The notes under the pieces: generated by a model
The model's database searches: none
Seen by the model: the letters and a program-made list of their open reading frames with translations, nothing else
Told to the model about the DNA's origin: nothing
Shown: one piece after another, positions 5,473 to 14,598 of the stretch
Layout: each line of letters begins with the position of its first letter
How positions within the stretch are numbered: the stretch's first letter is position 1
Origin: a virus
Virus record (IMG/VR): IMGVR_UViG_3300046007_003576
Span: 1-29,588 of that record
DNA length: 29,588 nt
Strand: one strand, 5' to 3'
Made by a program: the position numbers and the translations under genes

Positions 5473-5504
5473 TTTCGCTTATTAAACAAATCATGCTATC
5501 TTTG
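5473..5504 (+). promoter_or_regulatory. Promoter for the replication initiator leader
   Basis: TATCTTTG at 5497-5504 fits TAnnTTTG. The upstream element is weaker (TTTCG at 5473-5477, about 19 bp before). It lacks the TTGCACAATTAA box of the early class. The start point would be near 5511, leaving a leader of about 95 nt. Confidence 0.5.
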
Positions 5505-5518
5505 AAGCAGATTAATAC

Positions 5519-5605
5519 ACCGATGAGACAGATCGGTTTCAACAACATAAAGCCCTCTATTTGGTTTGCACTGTCTCTGCATTCCATTTAGGGGGTTAAT
5601 TTTTT
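5519..5605 (+). promoter_or_regulatory. Two-hairpin RNA leader with complementary loops (kissing-loop candidate and attenuator)
   Basis: Hairpin 1 is ACCGAT (5519-5524), loop GAGACAG (5525-5531), ATCGGT (5532-5537). Hairpin 2 has AGCCCTCTA (5551-5559) pairing with TAGGGGGTT (5589-5597). It then has a TT/TT internal loop, TGG/CCA, another TT/TT internal loop and TGCA/TGCA, closing on loop CTGTCTC (5571-5577). The two 7-nt loops are exact reverse complements, so they could form a kissing complex. Hairpin 2 is followed by TTAATTTTTT and then the ATG at 5606, so it also looks like an intrinsic terminator placed directly before the initiator gene. All pairings are read from the sequence; the regulatory role is inferred. 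No known riboswitch family was recognised. Confidence 0.6.
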
Positions 5606-6373
5606 ATGAACCTAATCGATTACAATTTTCGCCTTAATTCGATCATAAAGGAAGGCATATTAACGACCAATGAGATCGCCTTGATGTTTGTTATTATCAA
5701 CCTACAAAACACGCTTAGATCGGATTTATTCGGGTTGCCTACCCGTACAACCTCGGCACATTTGAACCTATCCCATCCAACGTATTACCGTACACTGGAA
5801 GGCTTACAAACGAAGGGATTGATAGCAATTTTAGAGCAAGGAAAGAAGAACCAAGCACCCATTATTCGAATCACATTCGATAAAAAAATTTTAGCGAATC
5901 CGTTTAGCATTTCACAATTCGAAACGTATGCGATAAAAGAAAATGAACAAATGCTATTAAAAAATTTTAGCGAATCCGTGCACATAAATAAGAAAGAAGA
6001 AAGAATCAAAAATAAAGAATCTACTAATAGTAGTAGTAGTATTAAAGAGCCATTTCAAAATTTGAAACCAAGTGATTGCAAAGAGTACATCAACGAGCAA
6101 TTAGAACTTTACATTCACAACCTTAAACAAGCAACAAATTACACCGTTGAACAAATACAAACCGCAGTCGATACCTTTGTGAACTACCAAGAACTTGAAA
6201 GCAAAATGTACCACTTCAAAGCAGATTCATTCAAACACTTTGCGCACTGGATAAAACGCATTGACCTAAACAAGATCAACAAACCAAAAGAACAAAAGCT
6301 TGACTCACGAAACATGACCGCAGACGAAATCGCTCAGTGGGTAGTCGAAAGAAAATTCGGAAAACAACCTTAA
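5606..6373 (+). CDS. Replication initiator / DnaD-like protein with N-terminal winged helix
   Basis: The N-terminal ~100 residues look like a winged helix: LTTNEIALMFVIINLQNTLR, then TTSAHLNLSHPTYYRTLEGL, then a wing GLIAILEQGKKNQAPIIRITF. This is the layout of phage replisome organisers and DnaD-type initiators that bind an origin. A charged, Ser-rich linker (about residues 125-150) leads to a helical C-terminal domain (YTVEQIQTAVDTFVNY, FKHFAHWI) that could recruit helicase or loader. Two copies of a 21-bp DNA repeat lie inside the gene, in different frames, followed by an AT-rich stretch, so the origin may be within the gene as in lambda O. A structured leader ends at its ATG. Confidence 0.7.
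   Translation: MNLIDYNFRLNSIIKEGILTTNEIALMFVIINLQNTLRSDLFGLPTRTTSAHLNLSHPTYYRTLEGLQTKGLIAILEQGKKNQAPIIRITFDKKILANPFSISQFETYAIKENEQMLLKNFSESVHINKKEERIKNKESTNSSSSIKEPFQNLKPSDCKEYINEQLELYIHNLKQATNYTVEQIQTAVDTFVNYQELESKMYHFKADSFKHFAHWIKRIDLNKINKPKEQKLDSRNMTADEIAQWVVERKFGKQP
5883..5979 (+). repeat. 21-bp direct repeat pair inside the initiator gene (possible origin iterons)
   Basis: Two exact copies at 5883-5903 and 5959-5979, 76 bp apart, consist of AAAAAATTTT followed by AGCGAATCCGT. They are read in different frames (KILANP versus KNFSES), so protein constraint cannot explain the match. An A-rich, TAG/TAC-repeat region follows to about 6045. This is the usual look of initiator-binding iterons next to an unwinding region. 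Confidence 0.55.
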
Positions 6374-6384
6374 AAAAAAACGAT

Positions 6385-7140
6385 ATGAAAATCAAAGAAA
6401 TGCAACCCCAAGCACGTGCTGAGTACCTAACCAAACAACTGCTCAAACTTTACGATTACTTCAACAACAATGTAACCGTTGGAGAAAACATCATGCGACA
6501 GGTGGAAGCGTTAGAGGAAGACCTTGAAACGTACAACAACTTAACCACCGATCAATTTGAGCAGGCATTAAGGAACGGACGTAAAGAAAGTACCGATGCT
6601 TTCAAACCATCCATTAGACTGATCGTGCAATGGGTAAGTAACTACGTTGTGCGCTTCAATAAGTCAGAGCAAAAGATTACGCACTCAGGAACAACGCTAA
6701 CACGTAACTACCCGATTGAACAGCGCAAAGCATGGATCATTTCAAGCTACCGTCAATACCACGAAGAAAAAAAGGACATGACCAAGTTCTACGATTTCGG
6801 TGCGCCTACGTACGAGGCAATCTACAAATACTGCGGTTACAACCTTTCAAACGAACAGCGTGAATGGTGTTTTGAAATGAGCAAACGTTTATCACTTTCG
6901 CAAATGTTCAATGCGTTTTTAACCCGTGACGAAAGCGACGAATTTAGAAACAACGCAACCGCCTGCGCTTACGCCTGCAAATTGTTTTTCGATCAGTTCC
7001 CAACGGAATCCGATTTAAGAACGCAGTTGGGGTACTTTGATAACGTTTCCAAAGATCACTTTGTAGCCAGTTACGAAAAGACCCCGTCGTTGGTAGCTTA
7101 CATGAGAAAGAAAAACGAAAATAATTTTGGACTTTCTTAA
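6385..7140 (+). CDS. Hypothetical protein downstream of the replication initiator (251 aa)
   Basis: The start at ATG 6385 follows the initiator stop by 11 bp; the upstream in-frame codon at 6337 would overlap the initiator. The protein is helical and charged throughout, with no Walker motifs, so it is not an obvious helicase or AAA loader. A recognisable segment is YYDY-like LLKLYDYFNNNVTVGENIM near the N-terminus. Position right after the initiator suggests a replication partner, for example an adaptor. I do not recognise the family. An A-run and the promoter at 7149 follow directly. Confidence 0.6.
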   Translation: MKIKEMQPQARAEYLTKQLLKLYDYFNNNVTVGENIMRQVEALEEDLETYNNLTTDQFEQALRNGRKESTDAFKPSIRLIVQWVSNYVVRFNKSEQKITHSGTTLTRNYPIEQRKAWIISSYRQYHEEKKDMTKFYDFGAPTYEAIYKYCGYNLSNEQREWCFEMSKRLSLSQMFNAFLTRDESDEFRNNATACAYACKLFFDQFPTESDLRTQLGYFDNVSKDHFVASYEKTPSLVAYMRKKNENNFGLS

Positions 7141-7148
7141 AAAAAAAG

Positions 7149-7178
7149 TTGCACAATTAATTTTTACCCTTATCTTTG
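7149..7178 (+). promoter_or_regulatory. Early-class promoter for the 7201-10444 gene block
   Basis: TTG at 7149-7151, exactly 19 bp, TATCTTTG at 7171-7178. It carries the shared TTGCACAATTAA box after an A-tract. The ATG at 7201 lies 22 bp beyond, which gives a leader of about 16 nt. Confidence 0.75.
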
Positions 7179-7200
7179 TAATACCAAAAACAAACAAGCT

Positions 7201-7380
7201 ATGACAACAATGATCAACAAACTAAGAGAAATTCAAAACGAAGAAATCGCAAACGGATTTTTAAACGGAAGCCTTTGGAATGATTTAGAAGATTTGATTT
7301 ACCAAATTCAAAATCCACAAGTTGAAACAATCCAAGGTGAATTGTACGCAGGTAAAACATTAAAACAGTTAGGGCTTTAA
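7201..7380 (+). CDS. Small acidic hypothetical protein (59 aa)
   Basis: This ORF begins 22 bp after the -7 element of a strong promoter, which is the best evidence that it is a gene. It begins MTTMINKLREIQNEEIANGF and ends GELYAGKTLKQLGL, is soluble and helical, and has no motif I can name. As the first gene behind an early promoter it may be made in large amounts soon after infection, a common place for host-takeover proteins. That role is only positional inference. Its stop codon lies in the loop of a small hairpin. Confidence 0.65.
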   Translation: MTTMINKLREIQNEEIANGFLNGSLWNDLEDLIYQIQNPQVETIQGELYAGKTLKQLGL

Positions 7381-7394
7381 TTAGCCCTTTCATT
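7371..7394 (+). terminator. Weak terminator or attenuating hairpin
   Basis: AGGGCT (7371-7376) and AGCCCT (7383-7388) pair around TTAATT, followed by the T-rich TTTCATTTT region. It would allow the first small gene to be expressed more than the genes behind it. The T-tract is interrupted, so partial termination is more likely than full. Confidence 0.4.
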
Positions 7395-7403
7395 TTAAAA
7401 AGA

Positions 7404-7643
7404 ATGATACAAACAACAGATAGCGAAAGGCATCTTGTTTTAAACAATTATCATTATTTTGATAAACAAGAATTGTTTTACTGGCATGATAAATTTACAA
7501 AACGATTAGAATACTTATCACCTCTTCTTGTTGAATTAGAAAATAAAAACATGAACTTAGAAGAAGTATGCAAACCTTTGGCACAAGAAGTTTTTGAATT
7601 GATTGAATTATTGAATCTTTTAAACCAAAAAACAAAAATATGA
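7404..7643 (+). CDS. Hypothetical helical protein (79 aa)
   Basis: An AT-rich ORF begins 23 bp after the previous stop. The protein is helical and acidic (LLVELENKNMNLEEVCK, then EVFELIELLNLLNQKTKI). It has no membrane segment or known motif. It overlaps the next gene by 4 bp, which supports its reality. More AT-rich codon choice than the ERF operon suggests a later acquisition, but that is only an impression from reading. Confidence 0.55.
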   Translation: MIQTTDSERHLVLNNYHYFDKQELFYWHDKFTKRLEYLSPLLVELENKNMNLEEVCKPLAQEVFELIELLNLLNQKTKI

Positions 7644-14154: not shown

Positions 14155-14598
14155 ATGCCAAGCGGAGAAAAATTAAAAGGTAAAGCACCAAAAAACGGGT
14201 TCGATACCAATTCCGAAAACATCAACCGAAATGGAAGGCCAAAGCTATTAAAGAACGTTATTAAAGATACGTTCCTTCAAGAGTTCAACGTTAGGTTAAG
14301 CCATTCCCAAGCCAATGAAATCATAACTGGAATACTTGGAATGACCCGTACCCAACTCATGGATTACGCAAAGAGTGACGATGTACCTTTTTGGATTTCC
14401 ATGATTGCAAAGAAAGCACAAAGGGATTACGAGCGTGGTTCAATTCACTTGATAGAGGTGTTGATGGATAGGGTGTACGGAAAACCGAAGGAAACCGTTG
14501 ATACTACCGTGAGCCTACCAAAGGCCGAAATTCAGATTGGGTTGGTTCAAAGTGTTATACCGCTTTCAAATAGTGAGGATGCAATTATCTTGGATTGA
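14155..14598 (+). CDS. terS: Putative small terminase subunit
   Basis: It lies directly before the large terminase, with its TGA sharing one base with the ATG of that gene. The N-terminus has GKAPKNGFDTNSENINRNGR followed by PKLLKNVIKD, a start I associate with DUF5681-like and small-terminase proteins. A helical core follows (IHLIEVLMDRVYGKPKETVD) and a C-terminal tail that could hold the large-subunit contact. Small terminases recognise the packaging site. The call rests mainly on position, size (147 aa) and the KPKE pattern. Confidence 0.65.
   Translation: MPSGEKLKGKAPKNGFDTNSENINRNGRPKLLKNVIKDTFLQEFNVRLSHSQANEIITGILGMTRTQLMDYAKSDDVPFWISMIAKKAQRDYERGSIHLIEVLMDRVYGKPKETVDTTVSLPKAEIQIGLVQSVIPLSNSEDAIILD

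Follow-up and report, generated by a model that had tools for sequence, protein, structure and literature searches.

The leader and its operon

The window considered here is a stretch of 29,588 nucleotides of viral DNA (IMG/VR record IMGVR_UViG_3300046007_003576, positions 1 to 29,588). Between a predicted promoter and the first gene of an operon lies a short leader with two hairpins, H1 and H2, whose loops are complementary to each other (Table 1). The initial annotation had described two hairpins with complementary 7-nt loops, a long and interrupted second stem and a T tract before the ATG, and this description is correct to the base. The promoter box follows the consensus TAnnTTTG of the Bacteroidota SigA factor, which is placed at -12 to -5 relative to the transcription start (PMC9723704). 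A transcription start near 5511 had been expected; the spacing of the SigA box moves the predicted start to near 5509 (PMC9723704). H1 follows the box after a gap of 15 nt and begins at about +12 from the predicted start. The outer 9 bp of H2 include a U-G and a G-U pair, the two inner segments are UGG/CCA (3 bp) and UGCA/UGCA (4 bp), and beyond the stem come AA, TTTTTT at 5600-5605 and the ATG at 5606. The two loops are 39 nt apart, and in the 29.6 kb, both strands included, GAGACAG matches this loop pair only.

Table 1. Positions of the leader elements and of the first operon genes in the window
Feature	Position	Strand	Details
SigA -7 box TATCTTTG (TAnnTTTG), Bacteroidota	5497..5504	+	from sequence; consensus and -12..-5 placement from PMC9723704
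Hairpin H1	5520..5536	+	stem CCGAT 5520-5524 / ATCGG 5532-5536; 7-nt loop GAGACAG 5525-5531
Linker H1-H2	5537..5551	+	A/U-rich, single-stranded, 15 nt; A5551 able to extend H2
Hairpin H2	5552..5596	+	8 bp (9 with A5551-U5597), UU/UU, 3 bp, UU/UU, 4 bp
H2 loop	5571..5577	+	CTGTCTC, exact reverse complement of the H1 loop; putative kissing partner
Tail TAATTTTTT 3' of H2	5597..5605	+	U-rich, terminator-like, abuts ATG
First gene	5606..6373	+	255-aa protein, putative replication initiator or helicase loader
Second gene	6385..7140	+	kept together with the first gene in relatives

The first protein had been called a replication initiator. Its position agrees with that of annotated replication proteins elsewhere, and its identity is putative: a weak N-terminal HTH and a sub-threshold C-terminal similarity to DUF7833 were found, and the structure model is of low confidence (pLDDT 62). 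Two further hairpins were seen in the window. At 1590-1620 a simple terminator-like hairpin, CCCCTGAGAAATCGGGG, is followed by T7 and an ATG at 1618. Downstream of the operon, the region 7171-7403 holds a second TATCTTTG promoter box and, just 5' of the ATG at 7404, the hairpin AGGGCTTTAATTAGCCCT, for which no kissing partner was seen.

Folding and chance expectation

Computed folding of a 113-nt piece gives -32 kcal/mol (z = -3.8 relative to shuffles) with the H2 loop open and H2 unchanged, and a competing pairing displaces H1; RNA folded from the predicted 5' end forms exactly H1 and H2, both loops open. A simple terminator scan of the window did not flag H2, which it passed over because of the internal loops. 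The bare motif, a pair of hairpins whose 7-nt loops are complementary, turns up about 0.8 times per shuffled 29.6-kb strand and is thus not rare, so that chance is not excludable from the window alone and the decision fell to comparison. A fuller descriptor, consisting of the promoter, H1, a long H2 with a complementary loop and a T tract, was run on all fetched loci: it gave 16 matches in 54.5 Mb of shuffled sequence versus 34 distinct matches in 5.45 Mb of real loci, near relatives, of which there are many, being counted separately among the 34. Descriptor matches with an H2 weaker than -12 kcal/mol were taken as chance.

Relatives of the leader

BLASTN and TBLASTN searches with the window leader and gene against named phages and plasmids, and with the gene against species genomes, returned no relatives, and protein searches recovered 26 viral loci with the downstream gene. 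Their leaders fall into type A, which includes the window, and type B, and these have only the layout in common. Type A loops are GAGACAG/CTGTCTC, GGGACAG/CTGTCCC and GTAGGAG/CTCCTAC, and type B loops are TAGCGG/CCGCTA and TGGCGG/CCGCCA. In L010 and L011 the two types are interchanged between near-identical promoters and genes. The TAnnTTTG box is kept upstream of the leaders, L318 and L319 being without an exact match (the L318 leader was recognised by eye), and all homologous leaders have a T-rich tail 3' of H2.

The initial annotation had placed the leader directly before the initiator. A promoter upstream and, usually, replication genes downstream are indeed found, but the leader belongs to whichever gene comes first: in L006, L007, L009, L026/L100 and L156 it is followed by a C5 cytosine methylase as the opening gene of the same operon, so the leader is tied to the operon start and not to the initiator. 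In L059 it precedes another gene, and in many cultured phages an ORF of about 70 aa lies between leader and replication protein.

Two observations concern the architecture of these loci. The first protein (L023-L025 and window 5606-6373) combines one C-terminal half with either of two unrelated N-terminal halves, MNLIDYNF... or MTGYEIDN..., and this domain swap adjoins the swapping leader. The 41-kb record IMGVR 3300042868_005071 (L005, L023) contains two operon starts separated by about 30 kb, one with a type A and the other with a type B leader, and the N-termini of the two first proteins differ; the record possibly joins two related phages as a chimera or a concatemer.

Covariation and the transcribed strand

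The homologues that were aligned had mostly been recovered by protein or flanking-DNA similarity; type D leaders had first been found through their loops, and the complementarity in one of them, L314, is an independent check because that locus came from a protein search. Across four alignments, 14 kissing pairs have changed on both sides, distributed as 4/7 in type A, 4/7 in type D, 1/6 in type B and 5/8 in the group of lillamy, mumin, morran and V175. All 143 kissing cells are Watson-Crick pairs, with neither G-U nor unpaired cells, and sliding the partner by 1-3 columns destroys the complementarity. The H1 stem has itself changed from U-A to C-G, with compensation, in L010/L012. A lack of compensatory changes in relatives had been named in advance as evidence against the contact; such changes are present, and together the loop and stem covariation argues that the kissing contact is under selection. 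Chance origin of the kissing loops is ruled out by compensatory changes in homologues found without use of the loops.

On the transcribed strand the stems comprise 378 Watson-Crick, 56 G-U and 2 A-C pairs, and this excess of G-U over A-C points to selection on the sense RNA. The same count weighs against a DNA-level element, such as a replication origin or a hairpin in single-stranded DNA, for which adjacency to replication genes would speak; a co-directional promoter motif also lies upstream in types A-D and in the cultured set. Such an element, or a chance repeat, which the covariation rejects, is thus a highly improbable source of the pattern.

Distribution among cultured phages

Leaders with the same layout, mostly of unrelated sequence, occur in cultured phages, where they usually open the replication operon. 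The carriers are the Flavobacterium phages elemoC, elemoA_13-1A, morran, lillamy, mumin, 11b and V175 (of F. columnare), together with Cellulophaga phi19:1 and phi18:3 and Polaribacter P12002L. An annotated replication protein lies within the leader's operon in elemo, phi18:3 and P12002L; a helicase follows the leader in mumin, and the second gene matches replication-initiation families in V175. The descriptor added further leaders of unrelated sequence (L059 with GTAGGAT, L236, L256, L257, L268, L297, L302, L303, L316 and L320), and type D comprises L238 (TTCGCAC), L245 (GGTAGCAG) and L314 (CTACCAG). The 28 tabulated leaders have 27 distinct loop cores. The two loops are 39-49 nt apart in 23 of the 28 and 55-64 nt apart in the other five, and in most families H1 starts at or a few nt from the predicted +1.

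Among the longer spacings are those of L236, L256, L257 and L316 (61-64 nt); L236, L256 and L257 apparently have an extra hairpin inside the 5' arm of H2 and possibly form a three-way-junction subclass. In morran, lillamy, phi19:1, phi18:3 and L320 (loci L328, at about 14300-14330, L330, L334, L335 and L320) the H2 tail and the start codon are separated by a conserved stretch, AGTTnTnGGTnATCTTwAAACC.

The descriptor did not detect the leader in Cellulophaga phi38:1 (first 50 kb), 6H, P12024L, Bacteroides B40-8 or Phocaeicola BV185P1, nor in a Bacteroidota MAG, of which 255 kb was scanned, counting both strands. It is strict, P12002L with an H1 of only 4 bp having escaped it at first, so failure to detect the leader does not prove its absence. 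Rfam 15, searched with the window and L330-L335 at gathering thresholds and at E values up to 5, gave no match to the leader, the best sub-threshold score being 19.1 bits for BSnc119 against the 115 needed; in the literature, which was covered in part, no intramolecular kissing leader in such phages was found. The view that no described family has this layout is upheld by Rfam. The leader is a real RNA element, because unrelated phages keep its layout with different yet matching loops, and judging from Rfam and the part of the literature covered it is apparently undescribed so far. It probably governs the level at which the replication operon is expressed.

Loop change and leader swapping

In type D the stems are nearly invariant while the loops change: in two comparisons 6 and 8 of the 14 kissing-arm positions differ, while the 66 positions outside the arms show 2 and 4 differences (p = 2e-4 and 4e-5), and most other pairwise tests are not significant. 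The phages elemoC and elemoA_13-1A, from one host, agree at 399 of 400 positions in the start of the replication gene and at 104 of 148 in the leader, with different loops. The region upstream of the promoter differs as well, so that a recombination tract can explain the loop difference without selection on the loops. In type B, and in six Baltic phages of three genera that have one leader in common, the loops are conserved. A universally faster rate of loop change is not supported, type B and most pairs being not significant. Loop diversification nevertheless appears real but patchy: strong in type D, suggestive in elemo, and absent in type B and the six Baltic phages. Such patchy change, together with leader swapping, hints at self-recognition in trans without proving it.

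Attenuation and its alternatives

A cis-acting transcription attenuator at the 5' end of the phage's early replication operon, in which a kiss within the molecule holds the loop of the terminator, is in our assessment somewhat more probable than all other readings taken together. H1 would fold first, at or near the transcript start, and H2, which resembles an intrinsic terminator, would form some 15-20 nt later and have its loop captured by that of H1, the kiss being an intramolecular helix of 6-9 bp. RNA polymerase would then either terminate at the U tract after H2, releasing a leader of about 95 nt, or read through into the operon, and kissing would shift this choice. The near-constant distance between the loops agrees with a kiss formed inside a single molecule. 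That termination and attenuation take place at the leader we infer with fair confidence; the direction of the kissing effect and any autoregulation in trans are speculative and rather doubtful.

The suggestion that the second stem is terminator-like gains from the T-rich tail present in all families, a stem followed by a U tract between promoter and gene being the sequence pattern of a terminator or attenuator. Tails after H2 are classical or strong in 11b, P12002L, elemo, L059, L256, L268, L297 and L303. Types A and B and L316 have weaker ones, and in V175 and L316 the tail is broken. In the window UUAA sets the U6 tract off from the G-rich stem, and termination there may for this reason be weak. 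No structure that would compete with H2 as an antiterminator was identified.

Translation might be controlled instead, with the kissed H1-H2 block gating ribosome access and initiation taking place, without a Shine-Dalgarno sequence as in Bacteroidota, on the U-rich tail, which would then not be a terminator. In types A-D the ATG directly follows the U tract, and the minimum-energy fold of type A pairs CAUAAA, upstream of H2, with UUUAUG, which includes the start codon. However, the ATG lies about 20-55 nt past H2 in elemo, morran, lillamy, phi19:1, phi18:3, V175 and L320, and the common denominator is the kept T-rich tail rather than the distance to the ATG. Also against this reading, the 12 nt before the window's ATG hold 8 T, where 40 putative starts average 3.4, though two others also have 8. 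Since every family has the tail, and the distance from H2 to the ATG after it ranges from 0 to about 55 nt, attenuation is favoured over occlusion of the start codon, and we regard translation control as unlikely.

About equally unlikely is a static role in cis, in which a compact 5' fold would protect the mRNA, bind a phage or host protein or act on the polymerase, with no recognition in trans. The put antiterminators of HK022 are two adjacent 5'-proximal hairpins that act directly on RNA polymerase; two 5'-proximal hairpins are present in the leader, where an action of this kind would be hypothetical. The placement of H1 at or near the predicted +1 in most families, the conserved spacing and the steady stems of type D would suit this role. 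Unlike most protein-binding loops, though, those of the leader are almost unconstrained beyond their mutual complementarity, as the 27 distinct cores attest, and a terminator-like tail would be superfluous for a purely static element.

The initial annotation had also proposed ColE1-type control by another RNA with the same loop. In ColE1 (RNA I/RNA II) and R1 (CopA/CopT), replication dosage is set by intermolecular sense-antisense kissing between complementary loops of about 7 nt, with specificity given by the loop sequence; the complementary loops are alike here, but they are paired within one leader. The loops of 7-8 nt and the interior loops of H2 do resemble kissing-hairpin antisense targets (PMC4878617). 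Yet 13 of 15 leaders have no opposite-strand TAnnTTTG box, the only promoter type considered, less than 400 nt away, the G-U pairs favour the sense strand, and an antisense target would not require H1 and H2 loops complementary to each other. No third copy of the loop core exists in the window or in the complete genome of 11b; elemoC has one extra 7-mer of the core, without such a hairpin. With neither a conserved opposite-strand promoter nor, in the window and 11b, a third core copy, it is unlikely that the leader works with an antisense RNA made separately or with some other target in trans, and the proposal is not supported; a leader serving, as in ColE1, R1 and pT181 copy control, as target of a separately transcribed antisense RNA is very improbable.

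Comparison with known systems

The repZ leaders of the IncI/IncB plasmids ColIb-P9 and pMU720 form a pseudoknot that activates translation and is blocked by an antisense RNA. They resemble the phage leader in the long-range loop pairing within an initiator leader, whereas the phage leader has a terminator-like second hairpin and no antisense RNA was found for it. The pT181 repC leader (PMC4878617) is alike in more respects, being a replication-initiator leader in which an intrinsic terminator precedes the gene, loops recognise each other by kissing and the hairpins have interior loops, but it depends on opposite-strand antisense RNA and on refolding between terminator and antiterminator, whereas both loops here lie in one sense leader. 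Interior loops below the kissing loop are a feature of known kissing-hairpin regulators (PMC4878617) and are present in H2 of types A-D.

Within phages there is a likeness to seqA and seqC of the CI RNA of satellite phage P4, complementary segments in the leader of phage replication genes (PMC4825925). CI RNA derives from the same transcript and brings about premature termination upstream of the replication genes (PMC4825925); the sequence here, with both loops in one leader, would allow such a system. It differs in being a processed lysogenic-immunity RNA, while here a hairpin loop pairs with a terminator loop. Several carriers of the leader, Baltic phages among them, are reported to be virulent (PMC7077304), so a role in lysogenic immunity was rejected; the temperate phage 6H showed no leader.

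Implications for phages of Flavobacteriia

Because both loops are on one RNA, the terminated leader could act in trans, where it would pair with leaders still being transcribed from the same phage and lower operon expression with increasing genome copy number. On this tentative and rather doubtful reading a single sense RNA would combine the parts of sensor, target and regulator in setting replication-operon dose, and differences between loops would prevent cross-silencing in co-infection, amounting to an RNA-based compatibility system of Flavobacteriia phages. Flavobacteriia are a major group in the sea and in fresh water, and little is known of how their phages regulate genes. The leader appears to be a widespread control element of these phages and is testable at once, since cultured phage-host pairs carry it. 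If the kiss controls termination, the leader would be a compact attenuator that works without ligand, protein or antisense gene, and its 27 natural loop pairs, of whose non-matching core combinations about 1% are predicted to bind at -8 kcal/mol or better, would make up a ready-made collection of kissing regulators that are largely orthogonal.
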